A stretch of 45,290 bases of DNA from a virus. This document shows positions 8,748-45,102 of the stretch, in pieces. How positions within the stretch are numbered: the stretch's first letter is position 1; every line of letters starts with the position of its first letter. The stretch lies in the IMG/VR virus record IMGVR_UViG_3300042882_001578, positions 1 through 45,290 of that record; one strand, written 5' to 3'. The notes beneath the pieces are model-generated. The model did not search any database and had not been told where the DNA came from. It worked only from the letters and a program-made list of their open reading frames with translations. The translations under genes were made by a program, and so were the position numbers.

Positions 8748-8866
8748 GATATAAATCAGAACATAAATTTAGCCGGCCAACCAGTATCGTTATTCTCGCT
8801 GGTGGAATTCTTCTTGCTTTACTCTTTTCCATCTACAAGATATTCGATACCCTAAGCCATTGTTGA
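8744..8866 (+). CDS. small single-pass membrane protein
   Basis: 40 aa, ATGA overlap. A basic N-terminus (MRYKSEHKFSRP), a transmembrane helix at about 14-31 (SIVILAGGILLALLFSIY) and a short tail ending SHC. Last gene before the tRNA-like element. Function unknown. Confidence 0.45.
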   Translation: MRYKSEHKFSRPTSIVILAGGILLALLFSIYKIFDTLSHC

Positions 8867-8881
8867 CAGCTTGGAAAGACA

Positions 8882-9055
8882 AGCGCTTGAGCTTTGAATG
8901 ATTGGTGTAGCATCGATGGCCAATGCAGTTAATTAGGTAGGTTGCGCAGATACGCCTAAATAAAAGAGTGAAGGTTCGAATCCTTCCACCAATCCTTGAA
9001 AGCTCAACGCTCGAATAGCAACGGGTTCTGAAAAATCTTATTCTGTTGAGCTTTC
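8882..9055 (+). ncRNA. structured leader: mutually exclusive stems around the tRNA-like element
   Basis: Three arms share one sequence. Arm 1 at 8882-8895 (AGCGCTTGAGCTTT) and arm 3 at 9045-9055 (GTTGAGCTTTC) can each pair with arm 2 at 8998-9011 (GAAAGCTCAACGCT). Pairing 1:2 extends the tRNA-like acceptor stem into an imperfect stem of over 20 bp; pairing 2:3 makes an 11-bp perfect hairpin followed by TTAAATTTTT. This looks like a switchable leader before the gene at 9094. The fold is seen in sequence; regulation is inference. Confidence 0.4.
8901..8994 (+). tRNA. tRNA-like element, anticodon arm not resolvable
   Basis: A perfect 7-bp acceptor stem (ATTGGTG with CACCAAT), bases TA at positions 8-9, a 4-bp D-stem (GCAT/ATGC) with a GG-containing loop, and a perfect T-arm (GAAGG, TTCGAAT loop, CCTTC) are all present in the right order. 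The 43 nt between D-arm and T-arm do not form a normal 5-bp/7-nt anticodon arm. The best pairing there, TTAGG with CCTAA, encloses 17 nt. CCA is not encoded. It is either a degenerate tRNA, a tRNA with an insertion, or a tRNA mimic. No amino acid is assigned. Confidence 0.4.
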
Positions 9056-9093
9056 TTAAATTTTTACTTAAACAAGAACAAAGGGAGATTACT

Positions 9094-9318
9094 GTGAGTT
9101 TTTTAAACACTTGGCTTTTAATTTTATACATAAGTTCTTCTTCGACCTCTGTCTCCACCGAAAGGTTCAACACCCGGGAAGAATGTGTGATGGTGGCGGA
9201 GAAAATTGGGGCGGAGGTTCAATCCGCTCAAATCATAGCCCAATGCATACAACTACCTAGAAAACCAATAAAGAGGCTCAAACCAATGGGTAAAGAGTTT
9301 TCAGCTACCTACAACTAA
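9094..9318 (+). CDS. small exported or membrane-anchored protein (GTG start)
   Basis: 74 aa starting at GTG with AAGGGAG in front. The hydrophobic N-terminus (FLNTWLLILYISSSSTSV) is a signal or anchor segment, followed by a small domain with two Cys (REECVMVAEKIGAEVQSAQI, IAQCIQLP), a pattern seen in short phage proteins of unknown role (...F.T.E.C..AA..I......A.C...). Probably periplasmic. Confidence 0.5.
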   Translation: MSFLNTWLLILYISSSSTSVSTERFNTREECVMVAEKIGAEVQSAQIIAQCIQLPRKPIKRLKPMGKEFSATYN

Positions 9319-9621: not shown

Positions 9622-9640
9622 GGAAATAAAGGAGACTACT

Positions 9641-10210
9641 ATGGCAAAAGATTCTAAATGTCCGCGGACCGGAACTCCATCCGAGGCTACCAAGTTAATG
9701 CAACAAAAAATCCTGGAAATGTACCGGGATACCCCAAACTTTCGTTGGATAAGCCAAGAGCTGGGCCTTTCCGATACCTATGTCAAAAAGCTTTACCGCA
9801 TGGCTCTAAAATCCATTATTGTGGACAATGTCGAGGATATGAGACGTTTGGAAGCTAAAAGATTAGACCGGCTTCATGAAAAAGCTATGCAAGTATTAGA
9901 AGCTTTTCACCCTTTAGTGAATTCCGGCCAGGTGGTTCGGGATATTATCGAGGATGCCAATGGTCGTCCGGTGATCAACCCGGTTACCGAGTTACCTATG
10001 ACTTACCGCTTACAAGATCAAGGCCCTTTGTTGGCAGCTATTGATCGGGTGGTTAAAGTATCCGAGCGCCGGTCAAAACTATTTGGATTGGACATGCCGA
10101 CTAAGACTACCTTCACCGACCCAACCGGCGAAAAAGAAGCAAGCTTCGTTCAATTCTATATTCCATCCAATAATCGTGATGCAGAAGAAGCTTTCGAAGA
10201 AGACGAGTAA
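9641..10210 (+). CDS. terS: terminase small subunit
   Basis: 189 aa from the ATG at 9641 (AAAGGAG, 9-nt spacing); the frame stays open back to 9539 but only through the terminator. Residues 15-50 include a helix-turn-helix (MYRDTPNFRWISQELGLSDT, YVKKLYRMAL) for pac-site recognition. A coiled-coil middle (MRRLEAKRLDRLHEKAMQVL) and a C-terminal acidic tail (EEAFEEDE) follow. The gene overlaps TerL by 32 bases, the classic arrangement. Confidence 0.8.
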   Translation: MAKDSKCPRTGTPSEATKLMQQKILEMYRDTPNFRWISQELGLSDTYVKKLYRMALKSIIVDNVEDMRRLEAKRLDRLHEKAMQVLEAFHPLVNSGQVVRDIIEDANGRPVINPVTELPMTYRLQDQGPLLAAIDRVVKVSERRSKLFGLDMPTKTTFTDPTGEKEASFVQFYIPSNNRDAEEAFEEDE

Positions 10211-11576
10211 ACCGGCCAGGCAGACTATTCGACCTCAACCTGGTCCACAGGAGCAATTCTTAGCTAGTGAAGCTGATATCGTTTTCTATGGTGGTTCAGC
10301 CGGTGGAGGTAAATCTTTCGGCCTCCTCATGGAGCCGCTTCGCCATGTAACCACGAATTCTGAATTCTATACAGTAATCTTCCGCCGGAACACCACTCAG
10401 ATCCGCAATCCGGGCGGCTTATGGGATGAGGCCATGAAGCTTTACCCTTGGGCGAACGGTAGGCCGGTCAATCATGTCTTGGAATGGCGTTGGAACAAAG
10501 GTGGAAAGATCCGTATGGCCCACCTGGAACATGAGAACTCTGTTTTAGACTGGCAGGGTGCCCAGATCCCACTTATCATGTTTGATGAGTTGACCCATTT
10601 CACAGAAAAGCAATTCTTTTATATGCTTTCCAGAAACCGATCAATGTGTGGAGTCCGCCCTTACATCCGAGGCACTACTAATCCAGATGCGGATAGTTGG
10701 GTGGCCCGTTTCATAGCTTGGTGGATTGATGAAGATGGTTCCCCGATTGAAGAACGCTCCGGTAAGATTAGATGGTTCATTCGATTAAGTGATACTATAA
10801 TTTGGGCGGACTCAGCAGAAGAATTGATAAAAGAATACGGTACGGATGTCAGGCCAAAGAGTTTTACCTTTATTCGCGCTCGTCTGGAAGATAATCCGGC
10901 CCTTCTAAAAGCCGACCCTGGCTACCGTGCCAATTTAATGGCCCTCTCTCGTGTCGAGCGTGAAAGGCTCCTGGGCGGTAACTGGAAGGTACGGCCATCC
11001 GCTGGAATGTATTTCAAAAGGCATGAGATCACCTTAGTTGATTCAATCCCTGATGACATAATAAAATTAGTCCGTTACTGGGACTTGGCCGCCACAGAAC
11101 CTGGTGAAGATAACCCTGATCCGGATTGGACAGCCGGTGTTTTGATGGGGCTTCGAAAAAATGGTAGATACATAGTCCTGGATGTTATACACTGCCGTAA
11201 GAAATCTGGTTCTGTTCGGGAACTGGTTCTTCGTACCGCAAGCAATGATACCCGTCAAGTTAAGATCGGATTACCGCAAGATCCTGGTCAGGCTGGTAAG
11301 GATCAAGCCGAGAGTTATGTCAGCCTCTTAGCCGGATTCCCTGTCGAGGTCGTTAGGGAGACGGGGGATAAAGTAACCCGCGCAGATCCATTTGCCGCTC
11401 AATGGCAAAACAATAATGTGGATATCCTGAGAGGTTCTTGGAATGAAGGGTATTTTGATGAACTAGAAGCTTTTCCTTCAAAAGCTCATGATGACCGTGT
11501 TGATGGTTCATCAGGGGCTTTTAGAATGTTGACAGGTAATTCTATAGCCGTTTGGTCTAAATTGGGGAAAAAATGA
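10179..11576 (+). CDS. terL: terminase large subunit
   Basis: 465 aa. Walker A at residues 38-46 (GGSAGGGKS) and Walker B near 131-137 (LIMFDEL) form the packaging ATPase. The C-terminal nuclease has RYWDLAAT near 300, LPQDPGQAGKDQ near 370 and HDDRVDG near 440, the acidic residues of a Terminase_6-type RNase H fold. It cuts and pumps phage DNA into the prohead through the portal. The ATG at 10179 lies inside terS with no clear ribosome site, so translation is probably coupled. Length is usual for the family. Confidence 0.92.
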   Translation: MQKKLSKKTSKPARQTIRPQPGPQEQFLASEADIVFYGGSAGGGKSFGLLMEPLRHVTTNSEFYTVIFRRNTTQIRNPGGLWDEAMKLYPWANGRPVNHVLEWRWNKGGKIRMAHLEHENSVLDWQGAQIPLIMFDELTHFTEKQFFYMLSRNRSMCGVRPYIRGTTNPDADSWVARFIAWWIDEDGSPIEERSGKIRWFIRLSDTIIWADSAEELIKEYGTDVRPKSFTFIRARLEDNPALLKADPGYRANLMALSRVERERLLGGNWKVRPSAGMYFKRHEITLVDSIPDDIIKLVRYWDLAATEPGEDNPDPDWTAGVLMGLRKNGRYIVLDVIHCRKKSGSVRELVLRTASNDTRQVKIGLPQDPGQAGKDQAESYVSLLAGFPVEVVRETGDKVTRADPFAAQWQNNNVDILRGSWNEGYFDELEAFPSKAHDDRVDGSSGAFRMLTGNSIAVWSKLGKK

Positions 11577-13399
11577 ATATCGAGCAACAAATCAAGAATG
11601 CAAAAGAGGCTGAGGCTGAGGCTAAAGAAACTTCAAAAACCGTAGATAGTTTTGTAAATTTTGCACACAACCTCGGGATTGGGGCCGATAACCCAATGAC
11701 CACTTCATCCTATGGATTCAACCCGGTCACCCGCAATAAAGTACTACTTGAATGGATTCACCGTGGTTCTTGGATCGGTGGTATCGCCGTGGATACTGTG
11801 GCTGATGATATGACCCGGGCCGGCGTCTCTATCCGTGGTGAATTGAGTCCAGATTACATTGCAGCTATTGAGGAAGAAGCTACCGTCTTGGACATCTGGA
11901 GTCAATTGAATGAGGCTATTAAGTGGGGCCGACTCTATGGTGGTAGCCTAGCTGTTATGTTAATCGATGGCCAGGATACTGAATCCCCGCTTCGATTAAA
12001 CACCATTCGTAAAGATCAGTTTTGTGGTTTCCTACCACTGGATCGGTGGATGGTGGAACCTAGTTTTAATGATCTTGTTACAGATTTCGGCCCTAACTTA
12101 GGAAAACCTAAGTATTATCGCGTAACTTCAAACGCTCCAGCATTGATAGGTCAACGAATTCACTTTAGCCGGTGTATCCGGTTTGAAGGAGTTACCCTCC
12201 CCTATAGCCAACGATTAATGGAAAATTTCTGGGGCTTATCAGTTCTTGAACGGTTGTATGATCGAATGATTGCTTTTGATTCGGCAACCACTGGGGCGGC
12301 TCAGTTGGTCTTCAAATCTTACCTCCGTACTTACAAAATCAAAGATCTTAGAGAAGTGGTAGCGGCTGGTGGAGAGGCTTTGGCCGGTCTAACCGCTTAT
12401 GTTGAAATGATGCGTCGATTCCAAGGGGTTGAAGGCATTACCTTGCTAGATGCAGATGATGAGTTTACCGCAGATAGCCACGGGGCTTTCGGTGGGTTAT
12501 CTGACGCTTTAATACAATTCAGTCAGCAGTTATCTGGAGCCCTGCAAATACCGTTGGTGCGGTTATTCGGTCAAAGTCCATCTGGTTTCAGTACCGGGGA
12601 GGCAGATTTACGTAACTACTATGATACTATTAAACAACAGCAGGTTCGGACACTCCAAGTCCCAATGACCAAAGCTTACCGGGCGATTGCGGCTTCTCTT
12701 GGTATCAAGGTACCAGAAGGGTTCCAGCTCCAGTTCAACAACTTATGGCAAGATACAGATTCCGAAAAAGGAGAGGTAGCTGGAAAGACTTTTGATGTGG
12801 TTAGTCGTGCAGAGGAATCTGGTTTGGTAGACAAAGCCTGTGCCTTAAGGGAGTTGCGCCAATCTTCGAAAATCACCGGTATCTTTACAAACATTACAGA
12901 CGAAATGATTGAAGAGGCGGAGAATGAACCACCTCCTCTACCTGAAACCGTACCCGGTGAAGAACCTCAAAAGGAGGAAGTTGTCCCAGAGGTTTTGAAT
13001 ACTCCAAAAACCACGGATACTAAGTTACGGGCCGCGGCTTTAGTTCCTTTCTCAAAGAATCGGCGAGTGCTTCTACTCCTCCGTGCTGAAGGGGCAGATT
13101 ATCCGGAGTACTGGGCCGGCCCTGGAGGCAAGATAGAAGGGAATGAAACACCTATTGGAACCGCTATCCGAGAAACCTCGGAAGAAACTGGTTTTGCCAT
13201 TGCCCCTAATATGATTGATACTCAAAAAGGTTTTGTTTACGATGGGGTACTGGTTCTACCAACAAAACCATTAGATTTTGAATTTGTACCAAGATTAAAC
13301 GATGAATCAGAAGCCGGTATGTGGTTCGATTTGACTGACCTACCCTCCCCTCTGCATCCTGTATGCTATGAAGCTTTGTGTACCTGGGGATGGGTATAA
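11573..13399 (+). CDS. portal protein (DUF1073-like) fused to a C-terminal Nudix hydrolase
   Basis: 608 aa. Residues 1-440 are a portal of the DUF1073 type (ATVLDIWSQLNEAIKWGRLY, WGLSVLERLYDRM, QIPLVRLFGQSPSGFSTGEA, then a DLRNYYDTI helix). A proline/glutamate linker follows (PPPLPETVPGEEPQKEEVVP). Residues 483-608 are a complete Nudix domain with a perfect box: G-x5-E-x7-R-E-T-S-E-E-T-G-F within a GGKIEGNETPIGTAIRETSE stretch. At the junction is K-T-T-D-T (479-483), matching the putative prohead-protease motif. ATGA overlap with terL. The portal is expected at one head vertex; the Nudix enzyme hydrolyses nucleoside-diphosphate-linked substrates, here unknown. Confidence 0.88.
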   Translation: MNIEQQIKNAKEAEAEAKETSKTVDSFVNFAHNLGIGADNPMTTSSYGFNPVTRNKVLLEWIHRGSWIGGIAVDTVADDMTRAGVSIRGELSPDYIAAIEEEATVLDIWSQLNEAIKWGRLYGGSLAVMLIDGQDTESPLRLNTIRKDQFCGFLPLDRWMVEPSFNDLVTDFGPNLGKPKYYRVTSNAPALIGQRIHFSRCIRFEGVTLPYSQRLMENFWGLSVLERLYDRMIAFDSATTGAAQLVFKSYLRTYKIKDLREVVAAGGEALAGLTAYVEMMRRFQGVEGITLLDADDEFTADSHGAFGGLSDALIQFSQQLSGALQIPLVRLFGQSPSGFSTGEADLRNYYDTIKQQQVRTLQVPMTKAYRAIAASLGIKVPEGFQLQFNNLWQDTDSEKGEVAGKTFDVVSRAEESGLVDKACALRELRQSSKITGIFTNITDEMIEEAENEPPPLPETVPGEEPQKEEVVPEVLNTPKTTDTKLRAAALVPFSKNRRVLLLLRAEGADYPEYWAGPGGKIEGNETPIGTAIRETSEETGFAIAPNMIDTQKGFVYDGVLVLPTKPLDFEFVPRLNDESEAGMWFDLTDLPSPLHPVCYEALCTWGWV

Positions 13400-42360: not shown

Positions 42361-45102
42361 TTATTCAACTAGCTCTTCAACATGGCCCCAATCTGGCCCA
42401 ATATCGCAATCCGCAATAATTGGAATCTTCAATGGGATGGCGGTTTCCAACACCCTTTTCATTTCCCTGAAAGCTTCATCCTTTCCACCCGGATCGCTAA
42501 AATCCAATTCATCATGAACCGTTAAGCGTGGGGTACCGGTCTCTGCGAAGATCCCATCTTTCCAGCATATCCACATAGCCTTTTTCATTAAGTCAGCAGC
42601 GGAACCTTGTAGGCGCCGGTTTAAGGCTTTATGTGTTTGTGCTCGGCGAATGTTCCCATACTTAAGAATGGCTTGATCATAAGGCAGTGGAATGGTATCC
42701 CGACCCCAATTGTCCGGTTCCCATAAGTCAAACCTAGATTTGCGCCCAAGAATCGTACGAATAACTCCTGTGGTCAAAGCCTCCTGTATGGCCTCCTCCA
42801 TAGTGGCCTTGGCGAAAGGTGCTCCTTCATGGTAGGCCGCAAACAGTTTTTTACCCTCAGATGCCTTCAATCCGAGGCCAGCTGATAAGGCATCCACACC
42901 CATCCCATAGATCAAACCGAAGTTGATGTTTTTAACAGCCTTTCGACTTAGTTCTTGACCAGTTTGCCTAGTAACTAATTCCTGGGTCATCACATGGTAA
43001 TCTGTATGCGGGTCACGATTAAAGATGTCCCGGACTTCTTGGCTCATTTTACCTACTGCGAAATGGGCCAGGAACCTGTACTCTACTTGACTATTATGGG
43101 AGCATAACCCCTCTGCAATGAATGTTTTGTGATCCGTTTCAACGGCTATGACCTCCTGTTCCCCGAGGTACTCAATAGCGAGCACCTCATCCGCCGGTCC
43201 CCAATTCTGGACATTCACTCCTTCGATCAATTTTTCTGGAACTTTTGCCAAGAGCCTGAGTGGGCGCACCTGTCCTAAAAAGCGCCAAATTGCATCACGG
43301 CCACCTGTTAAACGCAAGAGCCACACTCCTCCTTTATTCAAATGCTCCTCGTAGGCGAAATCGTATTTATCGAGAAGACGTTTAACTTCCGCATAGCACA
43401 AACCTTCTTTCTGTCCGACACCGACAATACCTGAACTTATCCAACCTTCTCCATCGAAGAATCCGGAGAGCCACCCAAGGTCATAATTTTCTGTAAGGTT
43501 CTCCCAAGGCTCTACCGCGCGCAGGATGCTTGCTCCAACCTTCAATGTCTCGGTAAACATCCAACGCGCCGGCGCATTCTTGTTCTGGCCAGGCCGGCCA
43601 AGCCACCGGTGTTTATCCGAACAGATGATTGAACCTTTGTTTGTCATAATTCGATAACATGGCCGGGTAAGCTTTTTCAATGCTGTAACTATTGAATTTC
43701 GAAGGTAACGCCTGCCTTTATCCGCTTGAGCCCCGGAATATTTTTTGTCTTCATCGAAAGCAACTATTGGCATACCAACCTCTAGGCTACAGGCTGGAAT
43801 CCAACGTAGATCAGGGGTCAGTACCCTAGTTTCTGGGGCGACACAATAATCATATTTGCGCCAGCACATGTGTTCATAATCAGGGGTAAAAATTCCTCGT
43901 ACCATAGGGGCTAATTCATCGTCTCTAGATGGCAAATTCTGAAGGTTAGGGGTAGAACTGCTGAACCGGCCGGATCGGGTTCCGCCTTCATCTCCGCGAA
44001 GCAGATGGAATTGGCCATATACCTTACCATTGACATGGGAATCGAGAACATAGGACTCCACAAAGGTTCCACGAAGTTTTGCTAGTTTTCGGATTTCGTT
44101 GATACTTGCAGAGATTGGATGATTGACTTCTTTGAGGAATCCTTTTGTGAAACTCGGGTTCCCTTTATCCGTCCGCGGGTAAGGAAGGCCGGCTTCATCA
44201 AAAGCCTTGGCTAAACTGGCTGAAGCATTAATTTCCACGTGGAAACCAACAAGTTTATCCAGTTTTTGCTGCTCCTGGTCTTCTTTGGCTTTTAGTTTGT
44301 CCCGCAGTTTTTCAGCGGCATCCACATCCACGGACACCCCTTCAAAGCGCATGTCGATAGTCAAATAGATAAGGTCACATTCCATGCGGAATAAATCGTA
44401 GAGGCCTTCCCGCCAGATCAACGGATATAATACTTCAGCTAACCGTAGAGGGAGATCGGCATCACTTTCAGCATATGGGCCAACTAGCCTGGCCGGTGCC
44501 CGATAAATGTTTGCCCTTTGTTTCCCAGTAATAGCCCCACCGTAATAATCGGAACACCACCGGTAAAGAAGAGAAGACTCTTTCCCCTCACCTAGATATT
44601 TTGTGGCCAGTGTTTCTAAAGCCACTTGAGCCCGTTCATCCAGTAGAGCTTCAGCGAATTGAACATCAAACAATTCACCTCGAACAATGACACCCTCTTG
44701 GCGGAGCCACCCGATATCGTAGGTTAGGTTAGCCCCGATTTTAGGTTGTTTTGGATTACCTAAAGTATCCCGGAGCCAGGCTAATACCGGTTCAACTGGC
44801 CAATTATACTCCGGTTCCACTTCGTGGCGAAGCGGGTAATACCACCGCCCACCTCCAGGTACCCCAATAGAAACTCCAACTAAATGACCTTTGCCACGAG
44901 CCCATCCTGGCCCATTGTCCTCCAGTTCCGGGTCATAGGTTTCCACATCAATGGCAATAGCCTTTGCTGAAGATAGATCTGGTAAATAAGTAGGTGGTAA
45001 CCATCCGGTATCTGGGATCGAAGGCATGACCCGGACGGTTTTGTTCCGACCAGTCGCTTGAACATCTTCCCAAAATAAACCTACAGCATCGACTCTAGCC
45101 AT
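42361..45102 (-). CDS. polA: family A DNA polymerase with 3'-5' exonuclease, interrupted by an intein
   Basis: 913 aa precursor; 662 aa after splicing. Exonuclease: AIAIDVETYD (Asp-x-Glu near residue 51) and GANLTYDIGW. Polymerase: GGTRSGRFSSSTPNLQNLPS, motif A DYSQVEYR split between Tyr419 and Ser671, motif B (RKAVKNINFGLIYGMG), motif C (TVHDELD near 862). The insertion of 251 residues at motif A begins with Cys420 and ends His-Asn, followed by Ser. This is the replicative polymerase; the phage needs splicing to make it active. It lies downstream of the 53-codon gene with no clear ribosome site of its own. Confidence 0.92.
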   Translation of the reverse strand: MARVDAVGLFWEDVQATGRNKTVRVMPSIPDTGWLPPTYLPDLSSAKAIAIDVETYDPELEDNGPGWARGKGHLVGVSIGVPGGGRWYYPLRHEVEPEYNWPVEPVLAWLRDTLGNPKQPKIGANLTYDIGWLRQEGVIVRGELFDVQFAEALLDERAQVALETLATKYLGEGKESSLLYRWCSDYYGGAITGKQRANIYRAPARLVGPYAESDADLPLRLAEVLYPLIWREGLYDLFRMECDLIYLTIDMRFEGVSVDVDAAEKLRDKLKAKEDQEQQKLDKLVGFHVEINASASLAKAFDEAGLPYPRTDKGNPSFTKGFLKEVNHPISASINEIRKLAKLRGTFVESYVLDSHVNGKVYGQFHLLRGDEGGTRSGRFSSSTPNLQNLPSRDDELAPMVRGIFTPDYEHMCWRKYDYCVAPETRVLTPDLRWIPACSLEVGMPIVAFDEDKKYSGAQADKGRRYLRNSIVTALKKLTRPCYRIMTNKGSIICSDKHRWLGRPGQNKNAPARWMFTETLKVGASILRAVEPWENLTENYDLGWLSGFFDGEGWISSGIVGVGQKEGLCYAEVKRLLDKYDFAYEEHLNKGGVWLLRLTGGRDAIWRFLGQVRPLRLLAKVPEKLIEGVNVQNWGPADEVLAIEYLGEQEVIAVETDHKTFIAEGLCSHNSQVEYRFLAHFAVGKMSQEVRDIFNRDPHTDYHVMTQELVTRQTGQELSRKAVKNINFGLIYGMGVDALSAGLGLKASEGKKLFAAYHEGAPFAKATMEEAIQEALTTGVIRTILGRKSRFDLWEPDNWGRDTIPLPYDQAILKYGNIRRAQTHKALNRRLQGSAADLMKKAMWICWKDGIFAETGTPRLTVHDELDFSDPGGKDEAFREMKRVLETAIPLKIPIIADCDIGPDWGHVEELVE
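43093..43845 (-). mobile_element. intein with LAGLIDADG segment in polymerase motif A
   Basis: Polymerase residues 420-670 (251 aa). Starts Cys (CVAPETRVLTPDLRWIPACS, block A), has a block-B-like segment (IICSDKHRW), one clear LAGLIDADG-type motif (LGWLSGFFDGEGW near 43441-43485), block F (DHKTFIAEGL) and ends Cys-Ser-His-Asn before Ser. The N- and C-terminal splicing residues are intact. Only one LAGLIDADG copy is obvious, so homing activity may be reduced or depend on a dimer. Confidence 0.88.

Follow-up and report, generated by a model that had tools for sequence, protein, structure and literature searches.

The DNA analysed here (the window), a virus record of 45,290 bases, encodes a contractile-tail phage; its gene products include a tail sheath, a T4-type terminase, a thymidylate synthase and a portal protein with a C-terminal fusion to a NUDIX domain (11573-13399). 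A tRNA-like element lies in a 227-nt gap (8867-9093) between same-strand genes and is co-directional with these neighbours. The gap belongs to a rightward run of small genes and is shortly upstream of the terminase genes (features in Table 1). A minus-strand open reading frame spanning the element (8790-9173) had no Pfam match and was dropped, as was a sigma-70 promoter ahead of the element, the region holding 9 promoter-like sites where 7.2 were expected. Elsewhere in the window, the gene in the small-terminase position (9635-10210) matched PHROG 645, whose label, 'RNase E', may be wrong. The DNA polymerase frame (42361-45102, minus strand) is, by eye, apparently split by an intein-like insert that has a C at its start and HN at its end.

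Table 1. Positions of the tRNA-like element and its surroundings in the window, and of T5 RNA1, T5 RNA2 and their homologues.
Feature	Position	Strand	Description	Basis
Arm A	8882-8895	+	5' half of the rod extending the acceptor stem; pairs with 8999-9011, C8886 bulged	sequence; in the MFE fold at 37°C and 20°C
Acceptor stem, 5' strand	8900-8907	+	G8900 is position -1; 8901-8907 are positions 1-7	Rfam tRNA alignment
T8908 A8909	8908-8909	+	positions 8-9	Rfam tRNA alignment
D arm	8910-8926	+	4 bp, loop CGATGGCCA with GG pair	Rfam alignment; perfect pairing
Hairpin replacing the anticodon arm	8929-8963	+	TTAaTTAGG / CCTAAaTAA, 17-nt loop 8938-8954	MFE at 20°C
T arm	8970-8986	+	GAAGG-TTCGAAT-CCTTC	Rfam alignment
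Acceptor stem, 3' strand, and position 73	8987-8994	+	C8994 pairs with G-1	sequence, Rfam alignment
Arm B	8998-9011	+	pairs with A (8999-9011) or C (8998-9008)	sequence, folding
Arm C	9045-9055	+	perfect 11-nt complement of 8998-9008, then TTAAATTTTT	sequence, shuffles
Ribosome-binding-like AAGGGAG	9081-9087	+	precedes the GTG start at 9094	sequence
Next gene	9094-9318	+	74 aa	weak PHROG 5579 match
T5 RNA1	AY543070 30501-30644 (L181 3002-3145)	-		T5 record annotation
T5 RNA2	AY543070 32959-33083 (L181 5460-5584)	-		T5 record annotation
RNA1 homologue, Salmonella phage smaug	L161 299-428		unannotated; between tRNAs	
Other RNA1 homologue regions	L162-L175			
RNA2 homologue regions	L182 200-330; L183-L186			

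The core of the element matched the Rfam tRNA model (RF00005) at 8901-8994 over the entire model (positions 1-71 of 71), with 37.7 bits against a cut-off of 29 bits and an E value of 4e-8 in a search of the whole record. This was the sole tRNA match within the record, and when 8800-9150 was compared with all of Rfam, tRNA was the only family above its own cut-off. Up to E 10, the same comparison returned, besides tRNA, four families that scored far under their cut-offs; T-box and other Rfam leaders and the C4 antisense RNA (RF01695) were not matched. A sequence-only reading of the window had described the acceptor, D and T arms as perfect and had proposed a covariance-model check of the Infernal type; the pairing proved complete at the places given and the full-model match passes that check. 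The acceptor strands 8901-8907 and 8987-8993 pair at 7/7 positions, with G8900-C8994 forming an eighth pair (-1:73), the D stem (8910-8913 with 8923-8926) at 4/4 and the T stem (8970-8974 with 8982-8986) at 5/5. Since the T loop reads TTCGAAT and the GG is kept in the D loop, the elbow contact can form. Position 14 of tRNAs is usually A; the core has C there, which counts against the explanation favoured below. CCA is not encoded, C8994 being followed by CTT, and a G-1:C73 pair by itself would arise by chance in about 1 of 16 cases. The stretch 8875-9065 folds with a z-score of -2.64, a single shuffle in 200 being as stable. The tRNA-like fold of 8901-8994 is real and above chance. ARAGORN called no tRNA for the element, presumably owing to the insert in the anticodon region, and neither ARAGORN nor Rfam gave a tmRNA match; two gathering-mode Rfam scans also missed the core, presumably through their speed filters.

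An anticodon arm with a 5-bp stem and a 7-nt loop is absent from the element. The anticodon region had been flagged as not tRNA-like, rightly so: its place is taken by an arm of 35 nt, in which 8929-8937 and 8955-8963 pair at 8/9 positions with one A-A mismatch. Because of this exchange the element cannot decode. Two decoding alternatives were discarded by eye. No removal of a single piece was seen to yield the 5-bp/7-nt arm expected of an intron-bearing tRNA, and the 43-nt gap, though of suitable length for the long variable arm of a class II tRNA, does not pair accordingly. The replacing arm is not structured above chance, being equalled in stability by 699 of 2000 shuffles at 37°C and 437 of 2000 at 20°C. 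Evidence for selection therefore comes from the core.

The core is flanked by arms A, B and C, all of which we found where they had been proposed. A and B form 13 pairs with one bulge, a rod that joins the acceptor stem through a mismatched segment, and B can instead pair with C (8998-9008 with 9045-9055) at 11/11 positions. The rod together with the cloverleaf is the MFE structure at 20°C; when enforced, its ensemble lies 0.89 kcal/mol above the free one at this temperature and 1.65 kcal/mol above it at 37°C. Enforcing B:C costs 5.6 to 5.7 kcal/mol at 37°C and 20°C. A:B is favoured over B:C by 5-6 kcal/mol, the difference in ensemble energy being about 5.5 kcal/mol at both temperatures, so that a balanced switch is unsupported and the earlier description of the arms as interchangeable was too strong. 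The longest Watson-Crick run in A:B (9 bp) was reached in 35 of 5000 flank shuffles and its duplex energy in 46 of 1000, and flanks pairing as well as A:B occur at 9 of 104 ordinary phage tRNAs (distinct ARAGORN tRNAs from the collected loci). The rod is moderately above chance. The stability of the B:C hairpin was matched in 6 of 1000 shuffles; a triple within 180 bases, made up of a 9-mer, its complement and a second copy of the 9-mer, is present once in the window and turned up twice over 30 whole-window shuffles. From the shuffle, tRNA-flank and triple counts, the three arms are probably more than an accident, though not overwhelmingly.

No relative of the element was found, which is not proof of absence, as records very near the window may fall outside the searches. 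A blastn search of 8861-9070 in 50,697 phage records returned no homologue (best E 0.2); one row, to Salmonella phage smaug, lay next to T5 RNA1 and was similar in the T arm and little beyond. Among the terminase (TerL) relatives (34 loci), a strict script scan, covering these loci and the window, revealed no such core; these loci and a further one (L117) were also run through ARAGORN. The search for capsid (MCP) relatives, up to 87% identical, gave 183, of which 80 were kept. RF00005 matched in 9 of 50 records including the window's own, that is, in 8 of the 49 others (several of them fragments), where no match was of comparable length, those listed spanning 70-88 nt. No homologues were found of the protein encoded at 9094-9318. 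Patterns of the element run against viral contigs gave 15 stretches in one scan, none with the element's anatomy, none in each of three further scans, and 5 in another, all without tRNA context; one scan of genome contigs gave none. On the minus strand of a tRNA-rich viral contig (L036 4865-4994), we noted a 130-nt tRNA match of 45.3 bits with a large insert, and on that of a second viral contig (L039 10760-10840) a match of 47.8 bits whose anticodon stem has 7 bp and its loop 10 nt, a few tens of bases ahead of a ribosome-binding-like site and an ATG; ARAGORN was silent on both. In one capsid relative, a long imperfect hairpin (AATGACAATGA... / ...TTCATTGTCATT; L117 1101-1186) lies directly 5' of an ordinary tRNA-Met between the genes for terminase and portal.

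The closest known kind of RNA is found in phage T5. In the T5 record, RNA1 and RNA2 bear the annotation 'tRNA-like stable RNA with unknown functions', while RNA3 is entered as a putative tRNA-like RNA, and RNAI, RNAIII, RNAIV and RNA2H as stable RNAs. Both RNA1 and RNA2 fold with an inflated anticodon domain. RNA1 has relatives in 490 of the 50,697 phage records, and in 422 of these a single place spans 80% or more of the query; the smaug stretch is 95% identical to T5 RNA1 over 137 nt, and in none of the 14 T5-like regions opened was the homologue annotated as an RNA. In 15 aligned sequences, 9 of the 33 predicted RNA1 pairs differ at both positions without losing the pairing; these compensatory pairs fall in the acceptor, the lengthened anticodon stem and the inner hairpin, and once in the variable arm. 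The inner hairpin, which sits in the enlarged anticodon arm, has a strongly conserved loop, AACATCCA. RNA2 has relatives in 431 of the 50,697 records. The domain that replaces its anticodon arm holds a second T-arm-like hairpin with the loop TTCGATT, and 14 of its 35 pairs show compensatory change among six aligned sequences, a count that leans partly on a doubtful row, since only five of the six, T5 included, have the full plan and Acinetobacter phage Acj9 convincingly shares only the extra domain and the T arm. The Acj9 stretch, which follows the tRNA genes of this T4-like phage, has an unremarkable fold of its own (31 of 200 shuffles reach its stability).

The window element has the building plan of these RNAs: judged from its sequence, the tRNA top half is complete and the anticodon arm has been exchanged for a longer hairpin. 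Like RNA2, it combines a tRNA-like core, a D arm and a T arm with a long domain that replaces the anticodon arm, is encoded by a tailed phage among small genes and, in our reading of the RNA2 sequence, has an 8-bp acceptor including an N-1:N73 pair. With RNA1 it shares the tRNA top half and an extended anticodon arm, and with the smaug homologue of RNA1 the extra pairs outside the acceptor. Unlike the window element, RNA2 carries the T-arm-like hairpin in its extra domain and is widely conserved, while RNA1 has an extra variable arm, its conserved inner loop and a Leu-like D arm. Moreover, the T5 RNAs lie within a tRNA cluster, whereas the element is alone in its record. Outside the T arm, sequence comparison revealed no homology to either RNA: the similarity to RNA2 does not go beyond that arm (13 nt), and that to RNA1 is a 19-nt T-arm match plus chance-level pieces. 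What is shared is the plan and not homology. RNA1 scores 24.0 bits with the tRNA model, below the cut-off, and RNA2 is absent at E 0.1, so that the window element, at 37.7 bits, is closer to tRNA than either. More distantly, it resembles the tRNA-like domain of tmRNA in having a tRNA top half without an anticodon; unlike tmRNA, it has a D stem.

The explanation that we favour, tentatively and with a probability of roughly 0.4, is that a tailed phage carries, in its rightward (late) operon and just before its packaging genes, an RNA that derives from a tRNA but does not decode. Host RNase P, RNase Z and CCA-adding enzyme would recognise the top half of the core within the transcript and excise it, yielding a stable RNA comparable to the tRNA-like RNA1 and RNA2 of T5. 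Because the element cannot decode, the excised RNA would act by occupying a tRNA-binding protein. The element would then be a variant of a known but neglected kind. The earlier suggestion of a tRNA mimic or RNase P-type element finds support as regards form, in the full tRNA model match, the elbow bases, the missing anticodon and the T5 precedent. RNase P and RNase Z prefer a single-stranded 5' leader and 3' trailer; the A:B rod pairs up both and would hinder end processing, which counts against the favoured explanation. The rod would probably guard or time processing of the core, and B:C could form on the downstream mRNA after the core is removed. HisRS is the most specific guess for the bound protein, because it charges minihelices with the G-1:C73 pair that the core possesses. 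According to passages of PMC9976931, HisRS charges such minihelices without an anticodon, all plant-virus tRNA-like structures (TLSs) can form N-1:N73, and these elements are missing from some alphaproteobacteria. The 3' TLSs of plant viruses are thus, like the element, viral tRNA mimics able to form this pair, but they stand at the 3' end of RNA genomes, whereas the element lies inside a DNA phage operon and has no CCA. A stronger version, in which the phage mRNA carries a tRNA-His-like mimic and HisRS processing or binding of the G-1:C73 core frees B from A to pair with C, coupling the host tRNA machinery to packaging-gene expression, strikes us as far-fetched.

Two other readings, both unlikely, deserve weighing against such an excised, protein-occupying RNA. 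The element may be what is left of a phage tRNA gene that lost its anticodon arm through a small insertion or rearrangement and is now functionless. Its single copy and lack of relatives in the searches would fit this, as would the chance-level structure of the replacing arm, the ordinary phage tRNAs with flanks paired as strongly as A:B, and the enlarged or odd anticodon regions in the L036 and L039 tRNA matches; but all 16 acceptor, D and T pairs and G-1:C73 are intact, so that the decay must be recent, and the rod and B:C are placed exactly around the core. Improbable to almost the same degree is a role in punctuating the mRNA, with the core as a cleavage mark cut by RNase P, perhaps with RNase III acting on the rod, B:C capping and protecting the 5' end of the downstream mRNA, and the excised piece having no role. 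The intercistronic position on the strand of the neighbours is consistent with this, a cut at 8994/8995 would free B such that B:C would begin 3 nt from the new 5' end, and the B:C hairpin exceeds 994 of 1000 shuffles in stability. A far simpler hairpin would be enough for this purpose, however, with no need to retain the D arm and elbow bases, and A:B would hinder the cut. In favour of such a role, RNase P is known, from passages of PMC11143913, to act on tRNA-like sites outside tRNAs, including the bacteriophage M3 and C4 RNAs.

The sequence-only reading had also raised an attenuator, in which A:B with the core would allow read-through, B:C ahead of the T-rich stretch would give the stop, and the choice would depend on whether the core is bound or cut. 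The two pairings are mutually exclusive, the 9-mer triple is as rare as stated above, and the ribosome-binding site is predicted to be more open at 37°C in the B:C fold (0.51) than in the A:B fold (0.20). Against this, A:B forms first in transcription and is the better fold by the margin given, TTAAATTTTT is a poor terminator tract, no T-box was matched, and the contrast in openness depends on the model, as the free fold at 37°C gives 0.13; a terminator scan listed no intrinsic terminator at B:C, a result to be read with its 8-nt loop limit, which would exclude such a hairpin anyway. With unbalanced folds, no listed terminator and no relative of the element in the searches, the case for an attenuator or switch is weak, and we regard it as quite improbable. 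Still less credible is an antisense regulator like the P1/P7 C4 or P4 CI RNA, an RNase P-cut RNA in which B would pair with the A and C arms of further copies of the leader. The P4 CI RNA system has seqA, seqB and seqC arms, which the order A-B-C, with B complementary to both, resembles; these phage leader RNAs also share with the element competing complementary arms and a link to RNase P. According to PMC5320573, C4 RNA is a substrate of RNase P and base-pairs close to ribosome-binding sites, but it consists of three stem-loops, unlike the cloverleaf with a T arm found here. Arm B, moreover, is outside the tRNA-like core, the C4 model was not matched up to E 10, and the 17 distinct window frames scanned, an incomplete set, yielded no integrase or repressor. 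The element may, lastly, be a decoy for a tRNA-cleaving defence, but without an anticodon loop it is no natural bait for an anticodon nuclease.

Anticodon-less tRNA-like RNAs are passed over in phages because screening programs expect an anticodon, as the silence of ARAGORN on the element and the T5 RNA1 homologues left without RNA annotation illustrate. Should such RNAs recur in unrelated phages, they would form a neglected class whose role is directly testable; feeding, blocking or escaping the host enzymes that handle tRNA are candidate roles, and T5 RNA1 and RNA2 would be tractable models for such a class.
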